A DNA stretch of 64,000 nucleotides from the NCBI RefSeq assembly GCF_032854445.1, contig NC_088303.1:4845501-4909500 (forward strand), in the 5' to 3' direction. Of the stretch, positions 7,384 to 37,500 are shown in pieces (position 1 is the stretch's first letter; each line of letters starts with the position of its first letter). Below the pieces are notes generated by a model. It saw only the letters and a program-made list of their open reading frames with translations, made no database searches and was not told the DNA's origin. This stretch comes from Liolophura sinensis (taxonomy: Eukaryota; Mollusca; Polyplacophora; Chitonida; Chitonidae). A program made the position numbers and the translations under genes.

Positions 7384-7597
7384 ATGGTTAAGGTGCTACG
7401 ATGTTATCATTTCAAATCGCAGGCTGTTATACCTTGTGATGGCGAACCCGTCGCCTTGCACGCCTCTCCAGGCCGCCTGTTCGTGGCAACAGCTGATCGT
7501 CAAGTTGAGGTCTACGAACTGGGAAAGGCAGGATTTCCAAAGCTCTGCAGATTTTCAACAGAGGCATCTGTCACTCAGATCATCTACAATGCTGCCG
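7384..7597 (+). CDS. HPS3: HPS3 exon 1 (residues 1-71)
   Basis: Starts at ATG 7384 (A at -3, G at +4) with [20 protein letters not shown], matching the start of vertebrate HPS3 in order and spacing (first strands of the beta-propeller-like domain). It ends in phase 1 at donor GTAAAT (7598). Confidence 0.93.
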
Positions 7598-10500
7598 GTA
7601 AATGTGGGAGTTTGGATCAGAATGTATTATAGAACGTAAATATGATCGAAAGGCCCGCCCCTAATAAAGAAGTCTGGGGAGTTGTTCTGCACAATTTTAG
7701 GGCTAGCCTTTACAAGTTTTATAGGCTAACCGCACCACATCGCTATGCTTTAACCTGGTGGAGTGCTTGGAGCAGTGTAACAAACTTATGCTCTGAATGT
7801 TTCTACATGTATTCTTAATATAACCCAGATATTGTTTGGTCATAGGCTGTCCTTATTAGAAAGAAAAGCGAAGGCAAACATCAAAACTCAGGCTCGATGT
7901 TCTCCTCCACCACCAGACTTATGCTGTGAATGTTCCTTTACATGTACTCTTAGTAAAACCCACATATTGTTTAATTGTTGGCCAGCATTGTTAGAAAGAA
8001 ACCCCATGATAAATCAGAACTGTGGCTCGACATTTTTCCTCGACGCTATGTTTCACTTTGCTTTGATGTCGGTATATCTGATCTGGGAAAACATTGAATT
8101 CTACACCCTGGAACAAATGTTTCTAATGTACAACACAACTTAATGTAGCAGGTTCGTAACGACTAGCATTCTAAGCGTAACAATTAATAATACAGGGGTA
8201 GCACAGTTGGTAGAGCGTCTGCTTCACGAGTGATAGATCCAGGATCAATTTTGGGTCGAATCACACCTAAAACCTTAACGCTTGGTGTTCAGCATGAAGG
8301 GGATAGTGCAACGACTGGTTGACCCGTATCAGTATAATGGCTTGGGCGAGGTGTCTCAATTGTCTTTGGTAAGCCATCTCGTGTGAAGCAGCACTAGATA
8401 AAAGAGTGATGGAACTCTGTCCTGCACCTTGACAAGTTGAAATGTTTTAACCAACTCGGTGATCTTGTGCAAAACATTCTTCGTTTGTGCGTTGAAGTTC
8501 CTATCTTGCATCCATCTTGGATGCTGCTATCTCATTGATTTCATTGGCAATTTAATTCCTTTCTGCACAATAAATATGTGCTAGCAGATGTCTACATATA
8601 AAAACATCACATAATATATGCACCAATACTTAATGCGAGCAACATTTCAAACAATTTACACTCCAACCTATGCTCAAATCGAGAATGCTCGTTTGCCTCC
8701 GGTGTTGTTGAGTACACGGTTTTGTCTCCCTGAAGAAATAGAACTTTCCTACCTTCATTAAAGATCCTACCGCGAAGCTACAAGTCATATGCAAATAAGC
8801 ACTGAGAAAAATCTCCTTAATCTTTACAAACCAAGTGTTAAGGTCCTGGGTGTGTACCTGGTGTAGGTGGGTGGTTGTTCATGTTCCTGGTGTAGGTGGG
8901 TGGTTGTTCATGTACCTGGTGTAGGTGGGTGGTTGTTCATGTACCTGGTGTAGGTGGGTGGTTGTTCATGTACCTGGTGTAGGTGGGTGGTTGTTCATGT
9001 ACCTGGTGTAGGTGGGTGGTTGTTCATGTACCTGGTGTAGGTGGGTGGTTGTTCATGTTCCTGGTGTAGGTGGGTGGTTGTTCATGTTCCTGGTGTAGGT
9101 GGGTGGTTGTTCATGTTCCTGGTGTAGGTGGGTGGTTGTTCATGTTCCTGGTGTAGGTGGGTGGTTGTTCATGTACCTGGTGTAGGTGGGTGGTTGTTCA
9201 TGTTCCTGGTGTAGGTGGGTGGTTGTTCATGTACCTGGTGTAGGTGGGTGGTTGTTCATGTACCTGGTGTAGGTGGGTGGTTGTTCATGTACCTGGTGTA
9301 GGTGGGTGGTTGTTCATGTTCCTGGTGTAGGTGGGTGGTTGTTCATGTACCTGGTGTAGGTGGGTGGTTGTTCATGTACCTGGTGTAGGTAGGTGGTTGT
9401 TCATGTACCTGGTGTAGATGGGTGATTTTCTCTCAGCATCCGCCCATGAAACTAACCACTGTCTTATAAGTGAAAAATTCTTGAGTGTAACGTGTTTAAT
9501 GCCCATCAAACAATCGATCAATATTTATGTTACTCTTGTACTCTGCCGGAGAAATCTTAATATGTTAAAAGTGGATTGACAAATCATCTGACTGCATTAG
9601 ACTACCCTATTTCTTCTAATTCTTGGGACACTTGGTCTGCTCATTTTAGGCAGTGTACATGAAATTGTAGCAGGAGTATTTAGTTTCTTTTTTCTCACAT
9701 GGTTAGTCCCTCTAATAAACAACATACTCATATCTTTACTTTTCGCAAAAGCTGAGAAAGAAATATAATATTCTGTTTTCAGGGCTAGTAAAGTCTGTTC
9801 AAAAATTAGCAGAATTATAGTAGTTTAATGAAGTCCACACAGTGTTTTTTATGCAATAATTTAGTAACAGAAGCATGGATGTGATGAATGAGGAAGTTCT
9901 GTTTTAACTTTGTGTTAATATTTACCACCCTATACCTCAACCATTTTGCATATGAAAGAGCAACTTTCAATGCAATTTATACAAAACTACATTGGTTGGA
10001 TTGGCCAGTTTCAGGGCTTCACAAAAAGTATAAGTTTATCAGTCTACAGTGAATATTGCCTTCATAATATGCTTGAATAAGTGAATACAGTGAATATTGC
10101 CTTCATAATATGCTTGAATAAGTGAATACAGTGAATATTGCCTTCATAATATGCTTGAATAAACACCTTGCAACAAGTGAAATGTTGAAGAATTGCAGTA
10201 GATCTGTTTCATATTTTTTTTGTAAGCTGATTTCAGAACTGAGTTTCACATGTAACTGAATAACGTTAACATTCTGATGTTTGCATTTCAGGTGATTACA
10301 TTGCAACGGTGGAGACAAAGAAGTCAATTCTGGGTGAATACAAGTTTGTCAAAGTGTACTTGAGGTGGTATGTAGATCAGGGGAGACAACCTGTGAAAGT
10401 GAGAGTGGCTGGGAAACCACCCAGTTTGAATACTAAGGAGATGAAGGGAGAGAAGGCCGAGGTGATTGATGTGCCAGTGTCTGAGAACATCCTGTCAATC

Positions 10501-13500
10501 ACGTCATGTCACACCACATCAAACTTAGCTGTTATTGCAGAGAACAAAGTCTTCCTCTACCACCTTGTTAATAAGCAAGCCCATGGTATGGAACGTGGCT
10601 ATCAGGTGAGACTTTGTGTGGAATCTGTCGAGGTTGATTTACACTGTGTTAGTTTTTGTCAGAAATATTTAATATTTATTGGTTCATCTGATGTTTAAGA
10701 CCAAATAAATCAAGACTGTCATAATTTTTGCTGTTTTGCAAAAGCAGTTCAATCTGAATGTCCTCTGGAAATGAAGATGACCATCAGACATGCTGTGGTC
10801 TTCATGAATGCAGGATGTATCATTGCCATTTTGATCTTGTCTTTGTCTTTTTGTGACAGTTTTTCTGGTGTATTTGCAATATTTCTTTTTAACTCTTCCA
10901 TTCTTGTTTTTTTTTTTTTTTCTTCGTTTCTTTTCAGGACATTTTGTTGTTTTTGCAACTGAACTGGGACTGTGCAGTATTAAGTGTGTCTCTATGTCAG
11001 GAGTACTTGGCATGTTTGAATTCAAAGTGTGCTCAGTTAGTCAAGATATGGTACAAAGCTCCACCTGGTGAGGAAAAGCTTCCAACAGTTGCCAGCAATG
11101 AATCTGATGATGTGGAGACTCAGGGAGATTGTCCCATAGAGGAGAAGTCAAACGATAATGAAACAAAGACAGATAATAATCAGAAAGATGAAGAGCCCTT
11201 TAGGGGGTTTTCAGTAGACCATTCTGATTCGCCGAATATGTTGAGTTTCGTGGACCATCTGAAGTATTCCACCATTGGAATGAGAGCCTCTCCAAGCCTG
11301 TCAAACTTGGCACCTGAAAGCACATCCAGCAAAACAGGAAAAGGGGAATGCGAAACCATCAGCGATGGGGAGGACTTTGTTCTTTGGGACTTCAGTGAAG
11401 ATACGATCAGTTTGCAGTTTGGGGGAGAAGATTCACAGCCAAGAGCCCCATCTGTGATCAAACCTATGTCTAAGACAATTTTTCTGAAGGGGTTTCATGC
11501 CCCGTCTGGTGGAATGTCTCCCATGAGTGTTCCCTTACAGGGGAAGCCAGTACCTCCCCACATTGTTGATCACAGAGGTGAGGTGTGTTTGTATATATGC
11601 ACTACACGTGTATGATACTTGGTTTACATTTTATTTTATAGCCCAGTTGACTTTAAACATCAGTGTCATTTAAAGAAATCCAAATTTATCTCATGCTGAT
11701 TTCTTATAATTTTATCCATAAGAGTAAGCAGCCTTCAGAGGATTAACATGTTTTTTGTACCCATTTGGCTTATAATTTGAGATTCACCGTGAGTGAAGCT
11801 CATACGGTAGCATTTCAGTCTGAAGTTATGAATGTAATGGATGGGTCAATAGTCTTATTACTAAGCCAATGATGGTAGGGTATAAATGTACATTACATGG
11901 ACACATGCATGTAAATCACAGACAGAACATGTAGTTGTAAAACAGGTAATTAAGGTAATCTAGATGCTACCAGAAAATCAGTTTTGTTGGTAATTCTCTA
12001 ATGGCAGCCTGCAAAAAACTCTGACCTCAAAGTGTTGGATGGCTGGGTTTGTTTTACTGGCCATCCTACTTGAAAACGAGCTTTTTCACGAAAATTTCAA
12101 AATATCTTTGCTTTTGTGAGTATAATGTATATTTGTTTCAGAAGATTTCTCCCAGAGAGATCAAGTTCAGATCAGCGTCATTATCCAAGTGAAACAACGC
12201 CATAACAGCCTATTTAAAGGAATCCAACTGATCCCAACCTATCGCAACAAGCACCACAGTATGTCCGCAGGCTTTAACACACTGTTTAACCATGGTACTC
12301 TCTCTGCTGAAAAAGTCTGTTGACTTGTCTGTCTGTTGTCTGAGAGGAAATCTTGTCAGTTTCTCAGAATGTTTTGTTTTCGTCAGTACCACAAATCATT
12401 GCCAGCCCTGCCACATTTATACTACTCTACGTAGAACATCAAGCAATATCAAATAATTATATCTTTTAAATATACTCATTTTTTTGAGGGCATCAGTAAG
12501 AATATGTTTTGTTGGATATAAAACCTGCCCATTTATATTTCATTCAATGTCAGTTTCTTTAAAATCTATCTTTTACATTTGCCTGAATAAAAGAGAATTC
12601 CCGGCTGATCGACCCTATGTATTTCTTAACTCTGTTCTACAGATACCAAAGAAGATGAGATAAACAAACAAACTGACCCCCAGGGCGATGCATCTGCTCT
12701 ACCACCTCCAGGGATCAGTGCCCCCTCCTCTCAGCCCTCTACCTTGGGAGGACTGAGTTGCTTCCTAGAGGCGGGGTATAATGGGGTTATGTACTCCGTC
12801 TTACCCACACCACACCTTCTATCACACTACAAGTTCGCATCAGAAGCCTTAAAGGTAAAGGCCATAGATCCAAGAATGTGGCTAGGGGTCTATTGGAAAA
12901 AACTGTTTCCTGGATATGACATTGATAATGTATTTGTAGAGGTATATGTGGGTGTTGACATCTTCATTTGTAGAGGTACATGTGGGTGATGACGTGTTCA
13001 TGTTCATTTGTAGAGATACATGTGGGTGTTGACATGTTCATTTGTAGAGGTACATGTGGGTGTTGACATGTTCATTTGTAGAGGTACATGTGGGTGTTGA
13101 CATGTTCATTTGTAGAGGTACATGTGGGTGTTGACATCTTCATTTGTAAAGGTACATGTGGGTGTTGACGTGTTCATCTTCATTTGTAGAGGTACATATG
13201 GGTGTTGACATGTTCATTTGTAGCGGTACATGTGGGTGTTGACAGGTTCATGTTCAATTGTAGAGGTACATGTGGGTGTTGACATCTTCATTTGTAGAGG
13301 TACATGTGGGTGTTGACGTGTTCATGTTCATTTGTAGAGGTACATGTGGGTGCTGACATGTTCATGTTCATTTGTAGAGGTGCATGTGGGTATTGACATG
13401 TTCATGTTCATTTGTAGAGGTACCTGTGGGTGTTGACAAGTTCATGTTCATTTGTAGAGCTACCTGTGGGTGTTGACAGGCTCATGTTCATTTGTAGAGG

Positions 13501-16500: not shown

Positions 16501-19500
16501 ACTTTTCAGTCTCCTTTTCATTGTCAGTTTGTTCTATGGGCTGATGTATTCACTTTTCTGCATGTATTCACTGTGAGTCTCCTTTCCACTTTCCAATCTC
16601 CTTTTCATTGTCAGTTTGTTTTATGGGCTGATGTATTCACTTTTCTGCATGTATTCACTGTGAGTCTCCTTTCCACTTTCCAGTCTCCTTTTCATTGTCA
16701 GTTTGTTCTACGGGCTGATGTATTCACTTTTCTGCATGTATTCACTATGAGTCTCCTTTCCACTTACCAGTCTCCTTTTCATTGTCAGTTTGTTTTACGG
16801 GCTGATGTATTCACTTTTCTGCATGTATTCACTATGAGTCTCCTTTCCACTTTCCAGTCTCCTTTTCATTGTCAGTTTGTTCTATGGGCTGATGTATTCA
16901 CTTTTCTGCATGTATTCACTATGAGTCTCCTTTCCACTTTCCAATCTCCTTTACGCTGTCATTCTGTTCTATGGGCTGCTGCTGTCCGTATTCGCTATGA
17001 GTCTTCTCTCTGCTGTTATTCCACGACCTTATGTAATTCCTTTGCTGCCTGTATTGACTACTATTAAATATTTTTCCACTCTCAGACTATTCCCCCACCT
17101 GATCTGGAGACGTGCCTGGTCAGCATTCAGCCATTCATTGGCACCAGACAGGCAGCCATGTCAGACCGTCATCTTCACCTTTTGACTAAAGTGGAGAGTC
17201 ACTTTCCAGCTACCAAACCATCCAAGTGAGTGTTTTCTTTATATGCCAAAGGTCATATCCCTTCATCTTTTCAGAGTTAGCTCTTTTGACTGGTGGGTCA
17301 TTCAAGATGAGTTTAAATACACATATATGTAGCACATTTCGATCAACGAAGCGCTAAAGCAAAGGAGCAGCTAGGATCAGTATGATTATTCTTGTATGAT
17401 ACAAGACTTGGACTTGTATAGGAACAAATGTGACTGAAGATGTACTCAGAGATTTCATTCAATGACCTAGTGTAGACTAACCAGTAACCTTGTTCAAACT
17501 ATTTGCAATGTTCTTTTCAGTGAAAGGTTTTACTGCGGTGAGCAAAGAGAATTGTTGAAATAGCAAAGTTGAAAGGGGGGTGGGGGGGGTGGCATGCGAG
17601 CAGGGGTGAGCTGGGTGGCCAAGCTAGAGTGGTGAGTGACAACTGTGTGGTCATCATGGAGTATTGCATTTAACATCAGCCGTTCAGAAGGTTAAACTGT
17701 TCATTCGTGTGGTGCTGGGTAATTGCATAGTCCAGTATATGTGCATTAAAAACTTCTCTTTGATATCATCATGGACTAGTTTTATAGAGATGTAGTAGAA
17801 GAAATATCTGCTTGCAAGATGGCAATGATGTTTTCTACTTTCACAGGGGGTGAAATTATTTTCTATATATCTAGACATGACTTTCAATAAAATCATTTTG
17901 GCAAATTATTATATTCACAGAAGACGAGAAACCAATTGGAGCTTGTATGTGCTGGAGCCAAGTTTAGTCTCGGACCTTTATAAAGATATGGTAAGTGCTG
18001 CTCCACCCCCGCACCCCCCCCCCTCCTCTACTTCCTGACACACAGAAACTCTTGTGTTTTACCTGTGATACTTGTATAAACATGTGGGTATGATAGTTAT
18101 TGTCTTATCAATGTCACTTTTCCTGGTGTTTGTGGGGTGTCACTTTTCCTGGTGTTTGTGGGTTTCACTTTTCCTGGTGTTTGTGGGGTGTTACTTTTCC
18201 TAATGTTTGTGCAGTGTCACATTTCCTGTTTTTTGTTGAGTGTCACATTTCCTGGTTTTTGTGGGGTGTCACTTTTCCTGGTGTTTCTTGGGTGTCACTT
18301 TTCCCGGTGCTTGTGGGGTGTCACTTTTCCTGGTGTTTGTGAGTTTCACTTTTTCTGGTGTTTCTTGGGTGTAACTTTTCCCGGTGCTTGTGGGGGTGTC
18401 ACTTTTCCTGGTGTTTCTTGGGTGTCACTTTTCCTGGTGTTTGTGGGGTGTCACTTTTCCTGGTGTTTGTGCAGTGTCACTTTTCCTGGTGTTTGTGGGG
18501 TGTCACTTTTCCTGGTGGTTTGTGGGGTGTCATTTTCCTGGTGTTTGTGGGGTGTCACTTTTCCTGGTGTTTGTGCAGTGTCACTTTTCCTGGTGTTTGT
18601 GGGGTTGGCCAACTGGGCAGTTAGCTTTTTGAAATTTTGAGAATTATTCTTTTTAATCATTAGAAAGTGTAACCATAATATTGTGGGCCAGCTACAGAGC
18701 AAATCTACTGACACTTAACATTACCATTGAACCTAGTGCAAAAGTAGGTCAACTCTAAAAACTGCACAATTAGATTAACCATCTTGACCTCAGGAGAGTG
18801 AATTTCAAAGAATTATTCCAACTGTGGTTTTTACACAATATTCTCGAAAGTTTGCTCTGCAGTTTACCATGGGATCAGGCATCAACTTTACAATATTGTA
18901 TTTTCTTTCTGTCTTTTGTTCTCAGCTATTATTGAATGTTGTTGAAATTTGGTGATTGAAGGATCAAGGTCACAAGGCAAATTTTGACTTTTTTTGGTTA
19001 ACTTTGGTCACATGACATGGCTGCCATCTTGGATTTTTATCATAACTTTTATAAATCTTCTTCTCAAGAATCAGTGAACGGATTCTTTTGACATTTGACA
19101 TCTTGGACATTCTTCAAAAGCTTTGGAAGCTAGACTTTTTTCGAAGTTATGACATCATAGAAAGTGTCCAATTTTGATTATGTTTTCATGTATTCTGATG
19201 TATATAGCAATGCTGATTCCAAATCTGCTTTCAGATTTTGCCTGTCTTTGTAACTTTTTGAAATGTAGTCAAAAAACTTTTTTCAGTTACATAATTTCAA
19301 CGACCTGTAACTCGAGAACTATAGTTGCTAGAAATGTTGCTAGAAACTTGCACCAAATTGTAGCCCAAGACGTAGTTTCTGGTCAGCGTCAAGGGATTTG
19401 AACTACGATCAGCAGTGTTCTCGCTAGAAATGTTTAAATGACGCCATCGTACTTCAGAAATAGAAGTGTAAGCCTGTGTATTTAACATAGACTTCAGAGG

Positions 19501-22500
19501 TAACTGTATTACTATACATGTGCTGCAGGTAGCTTGCCACATAGGTGGCCGCTTGTCACTCAGACCGAGAAATGAACAACTCTCCCTCCTATCCAAAGAT
19601 ATCAACAGACAATTTTGAATGTTTGGACGTATGATAGGCCTGTTTGCAATGCATTATGGGTAATTCTCAACAATCACAACGGCATTCCCCCATACCTATG
19701 TGCCATGTCCAAATATACCAACAAGTTCTGTCGACATGTGTAGCTTGTGTCATGACGAGCACAAAAAATGTAACTCTTATTATGCTAAATTCAACCGTTA
19801 AAGAAATATCGCGGTTTCCTGTTTTATTTCACCTTACATACCCATAAGGAAGAGACGGACTTTAGGATGCCGTACAGAAATGTAACTACGAAACCATATG
19901 CCATGGCTTTAGACTTACAATTTTTTTTAAACAAAACAACACACAACACGGCTTATTCCTTCTAATTATTTAGACCAAAATTTCATATCTTTATCTTTAC
20001 ATTTCCTGTCAGCTGCATGCACTCTGTCCTCACCTGCTGTCAGAACTGACTTGACAAATGTAAACCAGATGGGACACTAGAGTGGGGTGATTGCACACCA
20101 TGTCTCAAGCAACCTGAAGGATATGTACTGAACCAGGTGCGGTGGTTGCAAAGGACTAATAAGGGCTAGATGCTGTGGTGGTCTTCAGCACTGAACACAT
20201 TGTATACGATATCTGATAGTTTAGGCTTCTAACCCAGTTGATTTTTTATTTTTGTTATGCTTTTTCTCGATGTTGTTTGTAAATACGGTTACAGTTTGTA
20301 CATGCAGGTTGAAGTTGTTGAATTGTCCATTGTCTATGTACTTTGACAGTTAAATCGAGCCATTTGTCGTTTTGTGTGTTAGCATATGTTGTAACGCAGA
20401 TGTTTGCCATAGCTTAACTTTTCTGGCAAATTAGTTTAGAACATTACTTTCATAGTGTTTTTTTATTTGACGTTCAGTTGGGCCTTGATGATTGGCCACC
20501 GGTATCCCTGTAAGGAACTTTAACAGCTTTAATTTTATTTATGTGTGGTCAAAGAAATCTATTTTTCTTCATGCAGGTTATGTTGGGTACAAAGAACCAA
20601 GAGTCGTCTCCCCCTACTTACCTTCATCTTCTGCTAGAGGGATTCATAGCGCTAAAATCGTATCTAATGGAGAGTAACACTGATGAGCTTAAGGTGTTAG
20701 ATTTGTTGTCTGAGTGCTGTGCCTTGCTAGGGGATTACTACTCACAGTAAGTACATGTGAACCATTCCTGTATAATAAGAACCTTGGGTAAACTCGCCTG
20801 CAACAGTGCTGTCCAGGATTGATCAAATTAGTGCAGTTTGATTGGTGGAGAGGCTTTTTAAATTGCTAGAATTTTTTTCCGGGTTCATTTTATCTTTCCC
20901 TTTTAAACGGATGAATTAATTAATCAGCGGTGAAGAAATAGGATGCCTGCGACAGGTAATTTTTCTGAATGACAGTTGTCTGTCACAGGGTCACACTTGT
21001 GTATTAGCATGCTATTCATTAAAATTGCACAAATATTTTGGAGTCGAAATTCAGAATATCGAAACTAGAACTGGAGTTTTGTCGTTGTTAGAAAAAAGCA
21101 TGGTATTTAGACCTTTAAACAGATGCGAAACACATATGTACCTGCGGAGAAATTTTTGCCCAGGAAAAAAAATCATATTTCAATACCTGATTAGTCCTGG
21201 TGGATATTTAAACTTTCAGCAACTGATGTGTCCAGAAATAATAATTCCAATTCTCTGACATGACAGGCCTGGGTGTGGGGAGTGGAGGCTGGCCTTACCC
21301 TACTACCTGATGTCAGGTCTGACCCCTGAGGATATACTCAGACAAGCCGTCCTCCACCAACAGATCAGCAAGGTAACTCCCACATCAGACACAGGTGTTA
21401 AGTAGCTGACAGGGTTATCGAAAACTAGCACAGAGGCAGGTGTTGTACAGGTGTAGCTGACAGGGTTATCAAAAGGTAGCACAGAGGCAGGTGTTACACA
21501 CGTGTAGCTGATCGCGTTATCAAAAGGTAGCTCAGAGGCAGGTGTTGCACAAGTGTAGCTGACTGCGTTATCAAAAGGTCGCTCAGAGGCAGGTCTTACA
21601 CACCTGTAGCTGACCGCGTTATCAAAAGGTGGCTCAGAGGCAGGTCTTACACAAGTGTAGCTGACTGCGTTATCAAAAGGTAGCTCAGAGGCAGGTGTTA
21701 CACTAGTGTAGCTGACCGCATTATCAAAAGGTAGCTCAGAGGCAGGTGTTACACACCTGTAGCTGACCGCGTTATCAAAAGGTAGCTCAGAGGCAGGTGT
21801 TACACACCTGTAGCTGACGGCGTTATCAAAAGGTGGCTCAGAGGCAGGTCTTACACACCTGTAGCTGACCGCGTTATCAAAAGGTAGCTCAGAGGCAGGT
21901 GTTACGCACCTGTAGCTGACCGCGTTATCAAAAGGTAGCTCAGAGGCAGGTGTTACACACCTGTAGCTGACCGCGTTATCAAAAGGTAGCTCAGAGGCAG
22001 GTGTTACACACGTGTAGCTGACCGCGTTATCAAAAGGTGGCTCAGAGGCAGGTGTTACACACGTGTAGCTGACCGCGTTATCAAAAGGTAGCTCAGAGGC
22101 AGGTGTTACACTAGTGTAGCTGACTTCGTTATCAAAAGGTAGTTCAGAGGCAGGTGTTACACACGTGAAGCTGACCGCATTATCAAAAGGTAGCTCAGAG
22201 GCAGGTGTTACGCACCTGTAGCGGACCGCATTATCAAAAGGTAGCTCAGAGGCAGGTGTTACGCACATGTAGCTGACCGCGTTATCAAAAGGTAGCTCAG
22301 AGGCAGGTGTTACACACGTGTAGCTGACCGCGTTATCAAAAGGTGGCTCAGAGGCAGGTGTTACACACCTGTAGCTGACCGCGTTATCAAAAGGTGGCTC
22401 AGAGGCAGGTCTTACACACCTGTAGCTGACCGCGTTATCAAAAGGTAGCTCAGAGGCAGGTGTTACACTAGTGTAGCTGACTGCGTTATCAAAAGGTAGT

Positions 22501-25500
22501 TCAGAGGCAGGTGTTACACACGTGAAGCTGACCGCATTATCAAAAGGTAGCTCAGAGGCAGGTGTTACGCACCTGTAGCTGACCGCATTATCAAAAGGTA
22601 GCTCAGAGGCAGGTGTTACACACCTGTAGCTGACCGCGTTATCAAAAGGTAGCTCAGAGGCAGGTGTTACACACGTGTAGCTGACCGCGTTATCAAAAGG
22701 TGGCTCAGAGGCAGGTGTTACACACCTGTAGCTGACCGCGTTATCAAAAGGTAGCTCAGAGGCAGGTGTTACGCTAGTGTAGCTGACTGCGTTATCAAAA
22801 GGTAGTTCAGAGGCAGGTGTTACACACGTGAAGCTGACCGCATTATCAAAAGGTAGCTCAGAGGCAGGTGTTACGCACCTGTAGCTGACCGCATTATCAA
22901 AAGGTAGCTCAGAGGCAGGTGTTACGCACGTGTAGCTGACCGCGTTATCAAAAGGTAGCTCAGAGGCAGGTGTTACACACGTGTAGCTGACCGCGTTATC
23001 AAAAGGTGGCTCAGAGGCAGGTGTTACACACCTGTAGCTGACCGCGTTATCAAAAGGTGGCTCAGAGGCAGGTGTTACACACGTGTAGCTGACCGCGTTA
23101 TCAAAAGGTGGCTCAGAGGCAGGTCTTACACACCTGTAGCTGACCGCGTTATCAAAAGGTAGCTCAGAGGCAGGTGTTACACTAGTGTAGCTGACTGCGT
23201 TATCAAAAGGTAGTTCAGAGGCAGGTGTTACACACGTGAAGCTGACCGCATTATCAAAAGGTAGCTCAGAGGCAGGTGTTACGCACCTGTAGCTGACCGC
23301 ATTATCAAAAGGTAGCTCAGAGGCAGGTGTTATGCACATGTAGCTGACCGCGTTATCAAAAGGTAGCTCAGAGGCAGGTGTTACACACGTGTAGCTGACC
23401 GCGTTATCAAAAGGTGGCTCAGAGGCAGGTGTTACACACCTGTAGCTGACCGCGTTATCAAAAGGTGGCTCAGAGGCAGGTCTTACACACCTGTAGCTGA
23501 CCGCGTTATCAAAAGGTAGCTCAGAGGCAGGTGTTACGCACGTGTAGCTGACCGCGTTATCAAAAGGTGGCTCAGAGGCAGGTCATACACACCTGTAGCT
23601 GACCGCGTTATCAAAAGGTAGCTCAGGGGCAGGTGTTACGCGCATGTAGCTGACCGCGTTATCAAAAGGTAGCTCAGGGGCAGGTGTTATGCACGTGTAC
23701 GAAGTATCATTCTACCTTATTCTGGATTCTAAAAATGAGCAAACCATGGACCTTACATGAGGAGACCAGACATGACATACATGTACAGATATGCATGTGT
23801 TTGGCTATTGTCTTGCAGAGCCAACAAAAACAGGCTCCAACACCATACAGTACATACAATAATAATAATGAATATGATAATAATATTAGTTAAATGAAAG
23901 AATAATAAGGTAAAGTCAAAAGTAATGAAAAAAATAATGGAAAAAATAGAAAGTAAATGATTTAAATAAATAGCGGATAAAGTTTGTACTGCATGTACAA
24001 AAAGAAGTGGAATTTACAAAGTATCGTAAGCAGATATAAGTGTCCTGACAATGACATGTGGTCAGCATTTGTAGCATTTGTATAATGCTGGACAAAGCTG
24101 TTTGGTACATATACCACATTGTACGATAAGTTTGCCAAATTATTTGTTTCAGACTTCTATAGATGGCTTTGGACAAGGACTGATGAATTACCTGAACTAT
24201 ATTCTGTTTGAAGACAAATCAGAGCGAGAAATAAAAACAGTAAGTTTGAAATATATGTTGAATGATAAAATCTACATGGGATATGCATGTTCAACTAGGG
24301 ACTCCATATTTATGGTTTCCGTGAGAATCTTTAAAGTCAGAGCTGAAAATTTTAATATGATACACCAACGTGACACAGACATAAACATTTGCATTTAGTA
24401 CCATACTTTTTCTGCTTATAAAATAATTTATATCTTATTAGGCCTCCTGCAAAATAACTTAAATAACTCCATGATTTCAACTGTTCTGTTATACATGAGC
24501 TTACCCTTCTTCCTCAACCGTTCTGTTCCACATGAACTTACCTTCATTCCTCACCCATTCTGTTCTACATAAGCTTACCTTGGTTTCTTAACTGTGCTGT
24601 TCCACATGAGGTTACCCTCATTCCTCAATCATTCTATTCCACATGAACTTACCTTCATTCCTCACCCATTCTGTTCCACATGAGCTTACCCTCATTCCTC
24701 AACCGTTCTGTTCCACATGAGCGCACCCTCATTCCTCAACCGTTCTGTTCCACATGAGCTTACCCTCATTCCTCAACCGTTCTGTTCCACATGAGCTTAC
24801 CCTCATTCCTCAACCGTTCTGTTCCACATGAGCTTACCCTCATTCCCCGACCGTTCTGTTCCACATGAGCGTACCCTCATTCCTCAACCGTTCTGTTCCA
24901 CATGAGCTTACCCTCATTCCTCAACCGTTCTGTTCCACATGAGCGTACCCTCATTCCTCAACCGTTCTGTTCCACATGAGGTTACCCTCATTCCTCAACT
25001 GTTCTGTTCCACATGAGCTTACCCTCATTCCTCAACCGTTCTGTTCCACATGAGGTTACCCTCATTCCCCGACCGTTCTGTTCCACATGAGCGTACCCTC
25101 ATTCCTCAACCGTTCTGTTCCACATGAGCGTACCCTCATTCCTCAACCGTTCTGTTCCACATGAACTTACCCTCATTCCTCAACCATTCTGTTCCACATG
25201 AGCGTACCCTCATTCCTCAACCGCTCTGTTCCACATGAGGTTACCCTCATTCCTCAACCGTTCTGTTCCACATGAGCTTACCCTCATTCCTCAACCGTTC
25301 TGTTCCACATGAGCTTACCCTCATTCCTCAACTGTTCTGTTCCACATGAGCGTACCCTCATTCCTCAACCGTTCTGTTCCACATGAGGTTACCCTCATTC
25401 CTCAACCGTTCTGTTCCACATGGGGGTACCCTCATTCTTCAACCGTTCTGTTCCACATGAGCTTACCCTCATTCCTCAACCGTTCTGTTCCACATGAGCT

Positions 25501-28500
25501 TTGCTCATTCCTCAGCTATTCTGTTCCACATGAGCAATGCGTCAGTATAATGGGACTTGGTGTCATAGATTTAGGCAGCCTTTGAGGCCCTCCTTGTAAG
25601 TTACATGCACCTAGCACTGTTCAGTCCAGTGTCAGTATAATGGGACTTGGTGTCGTAGATTTAGGCAGCCTTTGAGGCCCTCCTTGTAAGTTACATGCAC
25701 CTAGCACTGTTCAGTCCAGTGTCAGTATAATGGGACTTGGTGTCGTAGATTTAGGCAGCCTTTGAGGCCCTCCTTGTAAGTTACATGCACCTAGCACTGT
25801 TTAGTCCAGTGTCAGTATAATGGGTCTTGGTGTCATAGATTTAGGCAGCCTTTAAAATCACGTCGTCTCATTTCCAATTTTCTCCTATTTCCTTTGTTTT
25901 GTCAGAATAGGCCATCTCAAAGACACTGAGACACCCCACTAGCTAAAGCTATGATTGGTGTATTGTTATTTGGTGTCTCCAACATGGTGTATTGTTATTT
26001 TGGTGTCTTCAACATGGTGTTTCAGTGTGGCAGCACTGTAAGTATGTTTGCAATGGGTCTGACCTGCTACAAGGAGAAACGGCCAGGACATGACTGGAAG
26101 AATGTTGAATGTGAGGTTAAATCCTGATTCAACAAATAAACAAGCAAATACTGTGTGTCAGACAACTCCTGTTGATAAGGTTTGCTACAATTGCCAGGAA
26201 TCAAAAACCAGGCTCTTGTTATTTTGTGCTAATTGAGGCAGACCCTTTAAACCTCTCTCATCCCCTGTGTGACAATATTGTCTTTGACAGGAGTACTGTG
26301 ACACGATCCTCAAGCACTACACTGAGTCTCCTTCCCCTGTCCTGTCCAATCTTCTGTATCATAATATTGTCTTTGACAGGAGTACTGTGACACAATCCTC
26401 AAGCACTACACTGAGTCTCCTTCCCCTGTCCTGTCCAATCTTCTGTATCATAATATTGTCTTTGACAGGAGTACTGTGACACGATCCTCAAGCACTACAC
26501 TGAGTCTCCTTCCCCTGTCCTGTCCAATCTTCTGTATCATAATATTGTCTTTGACAGGAGTACTGTGACACAATCCTCAAGCACTACACTGAGTCTCCTT
26601 CCCCTGTCCTGTCCAATCTTCTGTATCATAATATTGTCTTTGACAGGAGTACTGTGACACAATCCTCAAGCACTACACTGAGTCTCCTTCCCCTGTCCTG
26701 TCCAATCTTCTGTATCATAATATTGTCTTTGACAGGAGTACTGTGACACAATCCTCAAGCACTACACTGAGTCTCCTTCCCCTGTCCTGTCCAATCTTCT
26801 GTATCATAATATTGTCTTTGACAGGAGTACTGTGACACAATCCTCAAGCACTACACTGAGTCTCCTTCCCCTGTCCTGTCCAATCTTCTGTATGACAATA
26901 TTGTCTTTGACAAGAGTACTGTGACACAATCCTCAAGTACTACACTGAGTCTCCTTCCCCTGTCCTGTCCAATCTTCTGTATCATAATATTGTCTTTGAC
27001 AGGAGTACTGTGACACAATCCTCAAGTTATACTCTGAGTCTCCTTCCCCTGTCCTGTCCAATCTTCTGTATCATAATATTGTCTTTGACAGGAGTACTGT
27101 GACACAATCCTCAAGTACTACACTGAGTCTCCTTCCCCTGTCCTGTCCAATCTTCTGTATTATAATATTGTCTTTGACAGGAGTACTGTGACACAATCCT
27201 CAAGCACTACACTGAGTCTCCTTCCCCTGTCCTGTCCAATCTTCTGTATCATAATACTGTCTTTGACAGGAGTACTGTGACACAATCCTCAAGTACTACA
27301 CTGAGTCCCCTTCCCCTGTCCTGTCCAGTCTTCGGTATCATAATATTGTCTTTGAGAGGAATACTGTGACACAATCCTCAAGTACTACACTGAGTCTCCT
27401 TCCCCTGTCCTGTCCAATCTTCTGTATCATAATATTGTCTTTGAGAGGAGTACTGTGACACAATCCTCAAGCACTACACTGAGTTTCCTTCCCCTGTCCT
27501 GTCCTGTCCAATCTTCTGTATGACAATATTGTCTTTGACAAGAGTACTGTGACACAATCCTCAAGCACTACACTGAGTCTCCTTCCCCTGTCCTGTCCAA
27601 TCTTCTGTGTCATAATATTGTCTTTGACAGGAGTACTGTGACACAATCCTCAAGCACTACACTGAGTCTCCTTCGACTGCCCTGTCCAATCTTCTGTATG
27701 ACAATATTGTCTTTGACAGGAGTACTGTGACACAATCCTCAAGCACTACACTGAGTCTCCTTCCCCTGTCCTGTCCAATCTTCTGTATTATAATATTGTC
27801 TTTGACAAGAGTACTGTGACACAATCCTCAAGCACTACACTGAGTCTCCTTCGACTGCCCTGTCCAATCTTCTGTATTATAATATTGTCTTTGACAGGAG
27901 TACTGTGACATAATCCTCAAGTGCTATGCGGAGGCTGATCCTTCCAACCTCTCCAAAGTAATTATGTTCGGCAAATACCAAAACTTTGATACTGGTAAGT
28001 TGTCTTTGTATTCTGAAAATCAACAACCTTACATTGGAGTTTATTGTTTATAGTTAAATCATGTCTTGTCTTTTCACCATAAATATTTTTTTTGCTGATG
28101 AAACAATGAGAGTTTGCAGTTCTTAGCTTTGAGTGATATTTTGTTTCTTTTTTTGTAGCAACTTTGGTGATTCTCCCCCCATAACAAACTGTGTTAATAG
28201 TCAGCCATCCTTGTATGTAAAGTTACAATTACATAGAGCTGTTGTCTTCTGTGTATGTGTCTATTCTCCCCCCATTTCAGCAAATGCGAGGCTACACATT
28301 CCTTGGGTTTCTGTGCAGTAACTCTTCCAATATGTTGACCAATTTTGAAGACATTTTATGTGGAGGTTCACTTTGTGAAACCTGAACCCAAGCTGGTGGT
28401 ATAAATTTCTCTGAATATGCTTGTTATTCACTCTCTTCAGTGCCATTTGACCTTACTCATGCACCTTACTCATTTGCATTTTCAGCTAAAGCCATTTCAC

Positions 28501-31500
28501 TAGTAGAGGATAACATACGTGACAGTGCTAATGTTGAGAAGAAACACAGGTACTTCCTAAAAATAATGTGAAATCTATGATATACATTTGGTGTTGAAGT
28601 ATTGTATTGTACAGAGTAGTGACATGAGCCTTGTACAGTAATAGATTTTATGCCCTGCAAAGGTTTTTGATCTACTGAAAGTTATCAGATTAACTACATG
28701 AAGTTGATCGACCAGAAACAAACTGCACAAATTTGGACCGGGTATAAGTTACTCAAAACACAATAGCTTATTTTTTTGTTAGTACATGAAATACTCACAA
28801 CAATAGTAATGTCACAACGTCCTAGAAACAAAGATAGATGAATGATGCACATTTTCAATACAGCATTGCATTAAACAGTTATAAAGGTTTATAATAACAA
28901 TACTGAATGAATATATTCACAAAGGATACTTTGATGATCTTATACAATAACAGGAGAAGACTGTGGACAACAGATGGCTGCACTGCAGAACACCCGTTGG
29001 TATAAAAGACAGATTTGAAACTTTGACACTCATTCTTGACAGAGAGTTAGATATCCTACATCATGCACACAAACGGTAAATTAGACTAAATTGTTGTTTA
29101 TGGAAGAGACACAATTTTCTTGACTTTTACCAGATGAAAAATTCTGATTTTAGATTATGTGTTTTTGTCAACAGGATTTATTTTGTTGAAAAGTTCAGTC
29201 AGTAGTACCACATTAGTTTTTATTTCTATGCAGAAAGTTTGTAAGTTTTTCTTTACTTGCCTCATGCTGATTACCCTTTATTGTACAAGAGAGTGGAAAA
29301 ACCTGTACAGTATATTCATCGATGATGTCAGCTAGCCCTGATGTTTACCGACAGTTACTTACAAAAATACTTTTTTCATTCTTCAGTTGCTCTAGATTTG
29401 GACATTCTGCAAGCAGTTATTTGTTCTAAATCTTGTGATTGTGTCCATTTCTATTGCAAGGTGATAACATTTTGCTGTGTGTGGTACCAGCTTGAGTAGC
29501 CAGTCTGTGTCTCTATTTTTGTGATATTGATAGGTGTACTGATTTGCTGTGTGTGGTACAGGCTTGAGTAGCCAGTCTGTGTCTCTATTTTTGTGATATT
29601 GATAGGTGTACTGATTTGCTGTGTGTGGTACAGGCTTGAGTAACCAGTCTATGTCTCTCTGTTTTTGCAGTATTGATAGGTGTACTGATTTGTTGTGTTT
29701 GGTACCAGCTTGAGTAACCAGTCTGTGTCTCTCTGTTTTTGCTGTATTGATAGGTGTACTGATTTGCTGTGTGTGGTACAGGCTTGAGTAGCCAGTCTAT
29801 GTCTCTCTATTTTTGCAGTATTGATAGGTGTACTGATTTGCTGTGTGTGGTACAGGCTTGAGTAGCCAGTCTATGTCTCTCTATTTTTGCTGTATTGATA
29901 GGTGTACTGATTTGCTGTGTTCAGCTGTCCTTAACCTGAGGCTGTGTGAACCTGACAAAGCTCTGTCTGCATTAAGTACTGTCTCAAAGGTGAGTGTAAC
30001 TCTAAAACATGCAAATGAATGAAATGATGACAGATGGCTAGATGTGTAGATTCTCAAACTGAAATTAAATGAATTTAATATAAACCTGATCAACATATAC
30101 CAGCTGTTATTGTGTCACTCTGCTTTGCAGAAAATTGCTATGTAATATTTACATAGTAAGTGGCAAGTAAATCATTAAAAGAAAAATGAGAAATGTGAGT
30201 ATGATTATTTAAAAGCAGTGTTACACATTCATGATTTATGTTGCAGGCTGATGTCATCCGAATGTGTGTAGAAAATCCACAACTTCTCCACACAGGCACC
30301 ATGGAGTTATCTCCCTTGTCCCAAGTAAGGCCTTTTCTTCTCTGGAGTTTCCATATCTGTCTTACATACCTTTATATTTTGATGAAATTTGGGAAATAGG
30401 ATGGAGTCATGTGACAAATCTTTTAAGCTCAGCAGTACAAAGTACAGTCAGAGCTAATGACATGCCCTGAGCATAGACATGGGTGTACTACATGCATACA
30501 GGTTAACAGAATGTTAAGGTAAATGTTAAAGGTGGTATCTCAGGCCTCACATACTTGTAAAGCAAAATACTGCAGAGGGGAAATTTTATTGTTGAGTCCC
30601 TGCATGAGGTAATCTTGTGTATTGGAATCAATGTTTTATTAAATGTCAGAGGTAAATGTTGGAGATGTTATCTGAAAATGTCCAAAATGTATTGAGCTTA
30701 GATTTTTGCATTCATGTAAGCACAGTCACGTGAAAGGGGTATTCCATTTACATTGCACTTGTGTGGTATTTTTAGGGTAAATAAAAAGATTTGTCTCAAG
30801 AAACGTTAAGAATGGTAACACGTGCACAAACATGAATTGCATTTTTTACGCGCACTGAAGGGAGTAAAACATGAGATTTATAGTCTTTGATCAACTTTTT
30901 ATGTAATACCAAAATGGTCAAGGGTAGAAATTTTTGTTGATGAACCACCTGTGAGACCTAAAACTCTATTGATCTTGTTCAGTTTTTAAACCAGTCAAGC
31001 ATGCAAGAACACTGAGTAAGTACTATTAACACATTGAGGCTGAAATCATTTCATACATCTGTTCTATGGCGTACAGATCAGAGTCTTGTGGTGTATATTG
31101 AATGTATGAATTGTTCATTAGCCCTTCCAAATCATCGTATACTGTGGAGACATCTAGCCAAAAAAATTGTGCCTACATGTGAGCACACAATGCAGTGTTT
31201 GGAGTTCTGTTTTAAGTCAGCCATTTGCCTAAACTCTAGTCACTACATGTCATGTGCTAACTCATTGTTTTCAAACCTAACTGAATCTCTGTGTCATTTA
31301 CAGTTGATGAGGCAGCATTTTTCTCCGGTTTTCATCACAATCCTTGTGGCGCTTCAGGACTCAGCCATTATTCCTGTTGACATGGCGCTGACTTTACTCA
31401 AGGTAGGAATCCTTGATAAGTACAGTTATTTTTTAGTCAGTTTGAATTTATTTATTTATTTGAATGGTGTTTTATGCCGTACTCAAGAATATTTGACTTT

Positions 31501-34500
31501 ACGATACGATAGCAGCCACAGTTACAGTGGGAGAAAACCGGGCGCAGCCCCAGGGAAACCCACGACCATAGTCAGGTTGAGAAGTCAAAGTTTACATACC
31601 TTGGAATAAGTGTTATGAAGGTTCGTGTACAGTAAGATTACATTCCCCCGTCTTACTCAACAGTTAATTCTGATGAATGGCTACATAAAAATGTTGAGAA
31701 ATTAATGTGACCCGACAATATTGAGCAGTAAATAGCAAACCGTGAGAAGTTCCATACAAAAGTTGACCTTCACTATATAACATAGCTTCAGATCTGTCTA
31801 CATTTTTATAGTGATCTCTGCCATGTTCCTTGAAAAGACGTTTCTGGATGACCACAAATCTCATCTAAAACTTTAACATGTAGAAAGCTAAAAGAAACTG
31901 TACCAAAATTTCTGATAAACATAGTTAATATTTCTGTGTTAAGTGTGTAATTTTGTTTCTTTGTTTTTCACTCAGAGTAATGTTTACCAGTCAGAAGTCC
32001 ACAGGAATACTCATGTGAAGGAGTACTTGGAAACTCTGATAAATGGTGAGCCCATGCAATCTGTATAATAATAATAATTATAATAATAACAAAAATATCT
32101 ATATTTATTGAAAGTAGCTCATAATGAAAGTCTTCTTCCCCAAGGCCTTCGCAGAGAAAACAGTATATAAGACACATGTACTTCAGAGTCCAATCAACAA
32201 ATACATGTACATCAGTATATAGAAAACCGGATAAATCATCGCATAGTTGGAAAGGTAAAGTGACACACATTCATACATACAAAAAGCAACAACAAAACAA
32301 CAAATAGAGCTGCTCCACAGCTGTCCCAACCAGCAGGAAACACACCACTTCAAGCTAATGTTTGCCTTATCTGATGTGTCTGATATTACAGCCTGCAGTG
32401 CTGTGTATGATACTACAGCCTGCAGTGCTTTGTCTGATATTGCAGCCTGCAGTGCTGTGTCTGATATTACAGCCTGCAGTGCTGTGTCTGATATTACAGC
32501 CTGCAGTGCTGTGTCTGATATTACAGCCTGCAGTGCTGTGTCTGATATTACAGCCTGCAGTGCTGTGTATGATACTACAGCCTGCAGTGCTTTGTCTGAT
32601 ATTACAGCCTGCAGTGCTGTGTCTGATATTACAGCCTGTAGTGCTGTGTTTGATATTACAGCCTGTAGTGCTGTGTTTGATATTACAGCCTACAGTGCTG
32701 TGTCTGATATTACAGCCTGCAGTGCTGTGTCTGATATTACAACCTGCAGTGCTGTGTCTGATATTACAGCCTGCAGTGCTGTGTATGATACTACAGCCTG
32801 CAGTGCTTTGTCTGATATTACAGCCTGCAGTGCTGTGTCTGATATTACAGCCTGCAGTGCTGTGTCTGATATTACAGCCTGCTGTGCTGTGTTTGATATT
32901 ACAGCCTACAGTGCTGTGTCTGATATTACAGCCTGCTGTGCTGTGTCTGATATTATAGCCTGCAGTGTTGTGTCTGATATTACAGCCTGTAGTACATCTT
33001 AATGACAGGCTCTTGTACATGTGTAATAAAAGGAGAATAAAGTTTACAGTATGTGGCAGTTTCTATGAACATAAATCTATTTGCAAATGGATACTCAGTT
33101 TTGTATAGCTGTATATTTCGGATATATTATGACATATTGTAAAATTAATTGTTTTCTGAATTTGTTGTGTATTTAATTTCTGAATGTTGAAGTAAAACTA
33201 AAATTAAAATGTTGGTTTCGTATCTATACTTTTCACTCTTTACCGACATGTCATGCTGTTAATAGTGTGCCATTTTCTTTATAGGTACTTATAAACTGTC
33301 ATTATTTCTGTCAACAGATGAAAGGCGACAAAAAATATTTGATGAAGCAGCGGTACGTAGCATTTTAGTACAAACCTTTTATTGATAACTTTTGGTACAG
33401 TTTAAAGAAATCAGCCTCATATTGTTAGAGTTATTTGAAAAGCTATTTTACCTGATTCAACTTGGAGAGGTGTGAGAAGATTCAGTAGGAAGATAGATAT
33501 CCTCCTGGAATAATGTCAGTTTTAGCACCAAAATTAACAAATTTCTATTTGCTTTTAAAAATGCACTATTCTGTTTGGTCATTTGTCATTGTTTTCATTG
33601 TAGACATTGCTTTGTGACATCTATCTGATGAGGCTGATGGAATGGAAGCCACCTAAATCCAGAAACTTTCCTGTTCCACAGTTCACTATGGTACCCATCT
33701 GTCTTTCTTCAGTTCAGTGAAAAACTTACAACAGTACATCTTCAGATGTGTTCAGTAAACCCCAAGCACTCACTCAGATGTGATCAACGCCAGCTAACTG
33801 ATTATGTGATCAACACCAGTTAACTGATTATGTGATCAACACCAGTTAGCTGATTATGTGATCAACACCAGCTAACTGATTATGTGATCAACACCAGTTA
33901 ACTGATTATGTGATCAACACCAGTTAGCTGATTATGTGATCAACGCCAGCTAACTGATTATGTGATCAACACCAGTTAGCTGATTATGTGATCAACACCA
34001 GCTAACTGATTATGTGATCAACACCAGTTAACTGATTATGTGATCAACACCAGTTAGCTGATTATGTGATCAACACCAGCTAACTGATTATGTGATCAAC
34101 ACCAGTTAGCTGATTATGTGATCAACACCAGCTAACTGATTATGTGATCGACACCAGCTAACTGATTATGTGATCAACACCAGTTAACTGATTCAACACC
34201 AATTAACTGATTATGTGATCAACACCAGCTAACTGAATATGTGATCAACACCAGCTAACTGAGTATGTGATCAACACCAGCAAGCTGATTATGGCCTAGT
34301 ATTTAAAGCAAAATGTTCCTGAGGGAAATATTAGGAAAAACTAAACCAGACAATCAAATACATGTAAATTAAAAACGCAGAGGAAACAACCAGCTCTTGA
34401 TCGAAAACTTGTACATAGTAATACACTTTGCCCCGTATCATCCAGTATTTACATTGGACAGCACAGGGCATGTGGGGGATGTGTATATTGCCGTATCTAT

Positions 34501-37500
34501 CTATAGAGTGACCATGTAACTACACATAATAGTGCAGGTAGCTTTGATGCAACAAGTATCAGAAGCATGTCTGTAGTCTGTATAATATACGCTGTATATG
34601 CTCCAATTCTTTGTTCTCCTGGCCTATAAATACATGGTTTTCAATATCACATGATTTCTACTCCTGTGGTTTAAGATGTCATTTTAGAGGGATCTTATCT
34701 AAGATGACACCCGCCTCCCTCCCCTGCACAAAACTAGTTTTTGCATTTAATTTCTTAAAAATTTCTTCCAAATAAAAGCAACATTCACAAGCCATTCATG
34801 CGGATCAACGCAGCTCAAAAAATTGTTGGGCACAAAGTCAGGGGCTATGGCACAAAGTCAGGGTCTGTGGCACAAAGTCAGGGTCGATGGCATAAAGTCA
34901 GGGGCAATGGCACACAAAGTCAGGGGCTGTCGGGCTATGGCACAAAGTCAGGGGCAATAGCACACAAAGTCAGGGGCAATGGCACACAAAGTCAGGGGCT
35001 ATGGCACAAAGTCAGGGGCTATGGCACAAAGTCAGGGGCGATGGAACACAAAGTCGGGATATGGCACAAACTCAGGGGCTATGGCACAAAGTCAGGGGCG
35101 ATGGAACACAAAGTCGGGATATGGCACAAAGTCAGGGGCGATGGCACAAAGTCAGGGGCTATGGCACAAAGTCAGGGGCGATGGCATAAAGTCAGGCGCA
35201 GTGGCATACAAAGTCAGGGGCTATCAGGGGCGATGGCACAAAGTCAGGGGCTGTGGCACAAAGTCAGGGGCAATGGCACAAAGTCAGGGGCTATGGCACA
35301 AAGTCAGGGGCAATGGCACAAAGTCAGGGGGGATGGCACACAAAGTCAGGGGCTATGGCACAAAGTCAGGGGCTATGTCACAAAGTCAGGGGCAGTGACA
35401 CAAAGTCAGGGGCAATGGCACAAATTCAGGGGCAATGGCACACAAAGTCAGGGGCGATGGCACACAAAGTCAGGGGTGATGGCACACAAAGTCAGAGGCT
35501 ATGGCACAAAGTCAGGGGCTATGGCACAAAGTCAGGGACTATGGCACAAAGTCAGGGGCAATGGCATAAAGTCAGTGGCTATGGCACAAATTCAGGGGCA
35601 ATGGCACAAAGTCAGGGGCTATGGCACAAATTCAGGGGCTATGTCACAAAGTCAGGGGCAATGGCACACAAAGTCAGGGGCTATGGCACACAAAGTCAGG
35701 GGCTATGGCACAAAGTCAGGGGCAATGGCACACAAAGTCAGGGGCTATGGCACAAAATCAGGGGCGATGGCACAAAGTCAGGGGCTATGGCACAAAGACA
35801 GGGACTATGGCACAAAGTCAGGGACTATGGCACAAAGTCAGGGGCAATGGCACACAAAGTCAGGGGCTATGGCACAAAATCAGGGGCGATGGCACAAAGT
35901 CAGGGGCTATGGCACAAAGACAGGGACTATGGCACAAAATCAGGGGCTATGGCACACAAAATTAGGGGCTATGGCACAAAGCCAGGGGCTATGGCACAAA
36001 GTCAGGGTCTATGGCACAAAGCCAGGGGCTATGGCACAAAGTCAGGGGCAATGGCACAAAGTCGAGCTATGTCACAAAGTCAGGGGAGATGGCACAAAGT
36101 CAGGGGCTATGGCACAAAGTCAGGGGCGATGGCACAAAGTCGGGCTATGTCACAAAGTCAGGGGCTATGGCACAAAGTCAGGGGCTATGGCACACACAGT
36201 CAGGGGCTATGGCACAAAGTCAGGGGAGATGGCACAAAGTCAGGGGCGATGGCACAAAGTCGAGCTATGTCACAAAGTCAGGGGCGATGGCACAAAGTCA
36301 GGGGGTATGGCACAAAGTCAGGGGCTATGTCACAAAGTCAGGGACTATGGCACAAAATCAGGGGCTATGGCACAAAGTCAGGGACAATGGCACACAAAGT
36401 CAGGGGCGATGGCACACAAAGTCAGGGGCTATGGAACACAAAGTCAGGGATGATGGCACACAAAGTCAGAGGCTATGGCACAAAGTCAGGGACTATGGCA
36501 CAAAGTCAGGGACTATGGCACAAAGTCAGGGGCAATGGCACAAAGTCAGTGGCTATGGCACAAATTCAGGGGCGATGGCACACAAAGTCGGGCTATGGCA
36601 CACAAAGTCAGGGGCGATGGCACACAAAGTCAGAGGCTATGGTACAAAGTCAGGGTCTGTGGCACAAAGTCAGGGTCGATGGCATAAAGTCAGGGGCAAT
36701 GGCACACAAAGTCAGGGGCTGTCGGGCTATGGCACAAAGTCAGGGGCAATAGCACACAAAGTCAGGGGCAATGGCACACAAAGTCAGGGGCTATGGCACA
36801 AAGTCAGGGGCTATGGCACAAAGTCAGGGGCGATGGAACACAAAGTCGGGATATGGCACAAACTCAGGGGCTATGGCACAAAGTCAGGGGCGATGGAACA
36901 CAAAGTCGGGATATGGCACAAAGTCAGGGGCGATGGCACAAAGTCAGGGGCTATGGCACAAAGTCAGGGGCGATGGCATAAAGTCAGGCGCAGTGGCATA
37001 CAAAGTCAGGGGCTATCAGGGGCGATGGCACAAAGTCAGGGGCTGTGGCACAAAGTCAGGGGCAATGGCACAAAGTCAGGGGCTATGGCACAAAGTCAGG
37101 GGCAATGGCACAAAGTCAGGGGGGATGGCACACAAAGTCAGGGGCTATGGCACAAAGTCAGGGGCTATGTCACAAAGTCAGGGGCAGTGACACAAAGTCA
37201 GGGGCAATGGCACAAATTCAGGGGCAATGGCACACAAAGTCAGGGGCGATGGCACACAAAGTCAGGGGTGATGGCACACAAAGTCAGAGGCTATGGCACA
37301 AAGTCAGGGGCTATGGCACAAAGTCAGGGACTATGGCACAAAGTCAGGGGCAATGGCATAAAGTCAGTGGCTATGGCACAAATTCAGGGGCAATGGCACA
37401 AAGTCAGGGGCTATGGCACAAATTCAGGGGCTATGTCACAAAGTCAGGGGCAATGGCACACAAAGTCAGGGGCTATGGCACACAAAGTCAGGGGCTATGG

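Follow-up and report, generated by a model that had tools for sequence, protein, structure and literature searches.

The DNA analyzed here, referred to as the window, is a stretch of 64,000 nucleotides from an assembly of 609,464,459 bases in 632 contigs, all of which were searched as well. Liolophura sinensis is the name later given to the species of this assembly by its authors (PMC12441733). The forward strand of the window carries an HPS3-like gene, one exon of which is preceded by a long tandem array that resembles the beginning of that exon. The features concerned, numbered from the first letter of the window, are as follows.

7393..10686, + strand: 5' part of the gene, with HPS3_N (PF14761) matches at 7393-7599 and 10282-10686
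24153..24239, + strand: preceding exon, joining in open frame
26274..27921, + strand: 89-bp tandem array (very probably a mirage, see below), 18.5 copies by TRF
26291..27897, + strand: 18 upstream copies, each running from an exon-like GAGTAC start to an acceptor end
26914..26915, + strand: AG of copy 8, displaced by one base (ACAA/G, the slash marking the boundary), acceptor score below 0
27542 and 27809, + strand: displaced AG also in copy 15 and in copy 18, the copy closest to the exon
27896..27897, + strand: native acceptor AG, score 11.43, 86th percentile of 58 sampled acceptors
27898..27994, + strand: native HPS3-like exon, 97 nt, ending in a split codon, in open frame with both neighbours
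27995..28000, + strand: native donor GTAAGT, score 9.63
28486..28550, + strand: following exon, coordinates approximate to a base, CTAAAGCC running into donor GTACTT

A profile search of the genome with PF14761 (HPS3_N) gave two matches, both within the window. In a tblastn search with an unverified human HPS3 sequence as the query, 9 of the 14 rows follow the order of the protein along the + strand, spanning 7384 to 50670, and the other five are chance-like. No match to PF14763 (HPS3_C) was found in the genome at E <= 0.001, and the three exons, once joined, had no match in the PDB; the name HPS3 thus depends on the N-terminal family and on the rows obtained with that query. The exon flanked by the array has no match of its own and is assigned via the single open frame that it shares with its two neighbours. 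An earlier interpretation made from the letters alone (the sequence-only reading) had named it exon 12 of HPS3; the profile matches and the order of the tblastn rows bear out an HPS3-like gene, but the exon number is provisional. Neither a DNA search nor the PF14761 profile search of the genome found a second HPS3 copy.

TRF makes a single call at 26274-27921, with a period of 89 and 95% matches. When the array is cut at its acceptors, 18 upstream copies result, of which the 14th has 94 bp and the other 17 have 89 bp, so that the exon-like starts fall at 26291 + 89n through copy 14 and then at 27542, 27631, 27720 and 27809. Each unit consists of the 3' end of the intron (consensus AATCTTCTGTATCATAATATTGTCTTTGACAG) and about 36 nt of exon (consensus of the exon start GAGTACTGTGACACAATCCTCAAGCACTACACTGAG). 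Fifteen of the 18 copies have the AG at the expected position; in copies 8, 15 and 18 it is shifted by one base, to ACAA/G. Both the TRF call and the acceptor-anchored cut therefore confirm, down to the coordinates, the claim of about 18 tandem copies of the exon's own acceptor and start; likewise, only the last unit is joined to the full exon (27898-27994) and its donor, as had been proposed. A whole-genome DNA search with 27800-28100 as the query gave at least 18 matches, and those listed all fall within the array and the exon.

The 18 copies differ at 38 of 1386 cells, with 21 variant states in 77 columns, and the first 36 nt of the native exon are 81-86% identical to the units (14-19% difference); for the 32 nt 5' of the native exon, the identity is 81-100%. 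Minisatellites that span an intron-exon boundary have been termed mirages in lancelets, where they reportedly leave regular splicing undisturbed, according to the available text of the two reports (PMC3087553, PMC3902484). The array at HPS3 has the anatomical features of such elements: it contains the boundary, with the native boundary as the last copy; the splice signals are kept in the copies (15 of 18 with AG in place); and the copies have evolved in concert next to a divergent boundary copy. The near-identity of the inner copies and the greater divergence of the exon copy suggest that the array arose by tandem duplication and was subsequently homogenized. Two other serial arrangements do not fit. 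AGs of a NAGNAG tandem acceptor are 3 bases apart, and those of adjacent copies here are 88-94 nt apart; a recursive splice site reads AG/GT, and the junctions here read AG/GAGTAC or AG/GAATAC nominally and AG/AGTAC where displaced.

The consequences of using an upstream AG were predicted by joining the preceding exon to each one and reading through the native donor into the next exon. All 18 decoys bring a premature stop, 86-1515 nt upstream of the exon's 3' junction; the frame is open from the native AG only, and skipping of the exon likewise shifts it. Earlier statements that 89 is not divisible by 3, that one unit frame holds GTA CTG TGA and that extra units truncate the protein are all correct, the last for every upstream AG. 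Nonsense-mediated decay usually follows a 50-55 nt rule, and since the stops lie 86-1515 nt before the junction, all 18 decoy products would be expected targets.

Site strength was scored with position weight matrices. These were built from exons sampled in this genome (58 acceptors and 61 donors), with boundaries predicted by iteration; mirage exons were excluded, as was the HPS3 exon. Thirteen of the 18 decoy acceptors reach 9.2 or higher, against a median of 8.89 for the 58 sampled acceptors, and site strength alone thus cannot explain the choice of acceptor. The remaining decoys are weaker (5.2 and 5.9 in two copies, below zero in copies 8, 15 and 18). The donor-like GTs of the array all score 2.08 or less, 2.08 being the 2nd percentile of the 61 sampled donors, and the units therefore cannot be exons by themselves. 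A poison exon, that is a cassette with its own acceptor, donor and stop, would need all three, and the units provide stops but no donor. Because the AG of copy 18, which adjoins the exon, is broken, the closest intact decoy lies 178 nt upstream and would make an exon of 275 nt. Damaged decoys number 4 among the last 6 copies vs 1 among the first 12 (Fisher p = 0.022, for copies that share descent and a split chosen post hoc), and this clustering near the exon could reflect selection against near decoys rather than plain neutrality; it is given no weight in what follows.

Arrays that repeat an exon's own splice site are also found elsewhere in the genome, at 9 of 128 sampled exons (3 at acceptors and 6 at donors). 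By family, these are 6 of 60 myosin exons, 3 of 60 kinesin exons and none of 8 exons of Adh3, the classical lancelet mirage gene. The myosin exons, 60 of the 81 myosin-head matches listed, are those in 16 chosen clustered regions and, with 8 collinear Adh3 exon matches, make up a sample of 122,815 bases; the kinesin exons are the first 60 stop-free rows among 132 matches listed, in 84,849 bases. These choices could bias the mirage rate either way. The counts cover arrays with a TRF score of at least 50, and exon boundaries outside HPS3 are predicted ones. The nine arrays, with coordinates in their own pieces of sequence, are the following.

L008, 1646-3006: acceptor side, 32-bp unit x 42.9 (TRF)
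L018, 856-1151: acceptor side, 95 bp x 3.1
L025, 2-729: acceptor side, 64 bp x at least 11.4, running to the edge of the piece
L005, 8042-8233: donor side, 31 bp x 6.2
L014, 5578-6133: donor side, 31 bp x 18
L014, 8119-8643: donor side, 66 bp x 8.1
L020, 140-441: donor side, 140 bp x 2.1
L048, 2505-2576: donor side, 30 bp x 2.4, the weakest case at 78% matches
L053, 9-765: donor side, 63 bp x at least 11.9, nearly at the edge of the piece

The most extreme of these, more so than HPS3, is L008, at a myosin exon located at 2998 of its piece (contig C2). Its 32-bp unit reads TTTGTAG/GTTTGAGCG, and all 39 of the upstream acceptors identified by pattern would bring a stop. Over the nine mirages, 94 decoys were read, of which 90 bring a stop, 2 shift the frame without a stop in the extension and 2 are in frame and open. 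Within 1 bit of the native site are 62 of the 94. The exceptions, with weaker decoys, are the first L014 array (5578-6133; 1 of 17 within 1 bit) and L053 (0 of 11), and at these two site strength may matter. Both in-frame open decoys belong to L048, at a kinesin exon, where donors 30 and 60 nt further on would, if used, lengthen the protein by 10 or 20 residues and bring no stop; mirages are thus not uniformly silent or poisonous. Three further candidates were set aside. Arrays at L015 and L052 lie close to an exon without containing its splice site, and at L012 the array touches the exon core by 5 bases only and does not repeat the donor.

Tandem arrays are abundant in this genome: those with a period of at least 10 occupy 37.8% of the window, 16.8% of the 122,815-base sample and 12.6% of the 84,849-base sample. 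An enrichment of arrays at exons was looked for by random placement of the 34 arrays with a period of at least 20 in the 122,815-base myosin and Adh3 sample, and was not found. The arrays overlap 7 of 68 exon cores (L012 included), where 12.0 +/- 2.6 are expected, and only 4% of random placements give 7 or fewer. If anything, arrays are somewhat rarer at exons than chance predicts, as would be expected if selection removes many such events and tolerates the cases in which one good copy stays attached to the exon.

Chance acceptor-like units were also considered as a full explanation of the HPS3 array. Other arrays in the window do hold acceptor-like sites, at 12932-14063 (9), 16105-16978 (8), 29471-29920 (7) and 32375-32993 (3); only that at 26274-27921 was seen to repeat exon sequence too. 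In the array at 29471-29920, which has a 74-bp unit and 6 copies, none of the 7 acceptor-like sites scores below the sample median. About 14 bp separate the end of this array from what appears by eye to be the acceptor of the next HPS3 exon, which has the donor GTGAGT.

The explanation preferred here, taken as a whole, is given a probability of about 0.85. It holds that the array is a mirage, that the exon-proximal site is used, that products of the decoys decay and that the array has grown almost neutrally. In a genome this rich in minisatellites, tandem duplication may sometimes capture the edge of an exon. At HPS3, a block spanning the intron-exon boundary would have been duplicated in tandem, giving a minisatellite, and then expanded and homogenized, while the copy nearest the exon would have remained continuous with the remainder of the exon and with the donor, leaving the gene functional. 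Growth of the array within the intron, by slippage or unequal exchange, would be nearly neutral.

That the array is a mirage is the firmest part of this explanation, and very probably correct. The account of splicing, which appears likely, is somewhat less secure. Exon definition is established for metazoans and would probably favour the exon-proximal acceptor, as the native site lies within a normal exon length of the donor and the only other choices would be decoys 178 and 267 nt further up. Leakage to a decoy would introduce an early stop, and nonsense-mediated decay would clear the resulting transcripts. The array is thus probably harmless clutter that the splicing machinery ignores. Three options had been offered by the sequence-only reading, and the third of them, an array that is tolerated while the exon-proximal acceptor wins, is the one favoured here.

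The other two options, a splicing sink or a rheostat, amount to a model in which decoys divert transcripts to nonsense-mediated decay and the copy number sets the output of HPS3. The early stops of all 18 decoys, well upstream of the junction, and the 13 decoy acceptors as strong as a typical native one speak for such a model. However, an array whose regulatory effect is driven by its acceptors should conserve their core, and the opposite is seen: positions -3 to -1 have 5 changes in 54 cells, as against 33 in 1332 for the other 74 columns of the 18 copies, and this much variation or more is found in 9% of random three-column stretches. The decoys thus give no sign of being kept. In addition, the array has no usable donor, a similar arrangement recurs at myosin and kinesin exons unrelated to HPS3, and random placement gives no sign of an enrichment of arrays at exons (7 of 68, against 12.0 +/- 2.6 expected). 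Such a regulatory role is accordingly improbable.

Still less probable is an early stage in the gain of an intron or exon, by which a unit becomes a new exon or moves the boundary. A model of this kind has been proposed for lancelet globin genes (PMC3087553, in the available text), and elsewhere in this genome L048 has two in-frame decoy donors, but the HPS3 units have no donor and every HPS3 decoy leads to a stop. The least likely of the alternatives, if only slightly behind that one, is that the assembler multiplied the copies. According to the available part of its description, the assembly was built on 14x HiFi data (PMC11068029), and the head-to-tail mitochondrial DNA in one contig suggests that some repeat artefacts exist. 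Against this, the 18 copies are not identical (21 variant states in 77 columns), the mean HiFi read given there, 8,347 bp (PMC11068029), exceeds the 1.65 kb of the array, and comparable arrays occur at nine other sampled exons.

The closest known systems are the lancelet mirages. As in those, the chiton array is tandem and contains a splice site with the start or end of an exon, its unit is of minisatellite size, AG or GT is kept in many copies, the inner copies are nearly identical and the native copy lies on the side of the exon. The host here is, unlike theirs, a mollusc. A lancelet source for the DNA had been considered on account of the term mirage; a GFP family search, in which one candidate was scored, gave no match, which is weak evidence against it. 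Copy numbers also differ. In lancelets, as far as the available text of the reports extends, BflGb6 has two haplotypes with 6 and 3 repeat units (PMC3087553), and among further mirages, in PGBD5 and troponin C, versions of PGBD5 have 2-7 and 3-6 units (PMC3902484); against these 3-6 and 2-7 units, the chiton has 18 (HPS3) and 39 (myosin) upstream acceptors. Lancelet mirages have been tested for undisturbed splicing and for instability of length, according to the same text, whereas the chiton array is known from genome sequence, in one haploid assembly.

Two human systems are more distant. Tandem repeats at splice boundaries that are able to alter splicing have been described in human gene duplicates (PMC2812944); in the available text, the repeats vary among young paralogues located in segmental duplications, and new introns are formed in their transcripts, while for chiton HPS3 no second genomic copy was found. 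The VNTR of ABCA7 (PMC5954066) is also an intronic minisatellite with a claimed effect on splicing, but the accessible part of that report gives no indication that its units repeat the exon's own acceptor.

Uniqueness had been suggested for an array with this many serial 3' splice sites. That suggestion does not hold, as 9 of 128 sampled exons elsewhere in the genome are alike, one of them with 39 upstream acceptors, and the lancelet term is years old. The HPS3 array alone is one case of a known thing, and the wider pattern matters more. No earlier report of mirages in a mollusc or chiton was found in open-licence literature, among the matches listed, and as far as these searches show, what is new is the presence of mirages in a mollusc, at 7% of sampled exons. 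Boundary-spanning minisatellites, otherwise found described only from lancelets, are here present at 9 of 128 sampled mollusc exons, on both acceptor and donor sides. Competition experiments with duplicated splice sites were reportedly performed in the 1980s; mirage loci are natural versions of them, at copy numbers that nobody would build, and published RNA data from the same animal could reveal which site wins. Gene models in such genomes may err at exon edges, and the genome-wide pattern merits a separate study.

A much bolder and rather doubtful extension is that thousands of chiton splice sites are serial with near-identical decoys, that a positional rule, which takes the exon-adjoining site with a partner, ignores up to 39 equal rivals, and that lancelets converged on the same state independently. 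In that case strong exon definition would be selected for in genomes rich in minisatellites, and the chiton genome would offer a ready-made set of competition experiments that differ in how many rivals a site has.

Several other repeats were observed. A 20-bp array at 34829-38800, with 195 copies, holds a 1,792-bp tandem duplication whose halves (34896-36687 and 36688-38479) are 99.7% identical, which could be a recent duplication or an assembly effect. On the - strand at 21303-23582, a 51-bp array has a 759-residue open frame of repeats, probably only because the array is intronic and its period is a multiple of 3. In contig C99, COX1 matches recur about every 15.5 kb (at least 7 are listed), corresponding to head-to-tail copies of the mitochondrial genome, either a concatemer artefact or a real insert. 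In an order that fits a mollusc, the mitochondrial COX1 region has the reading frames ND3, ND2, COX1, COX2 and ATP6.
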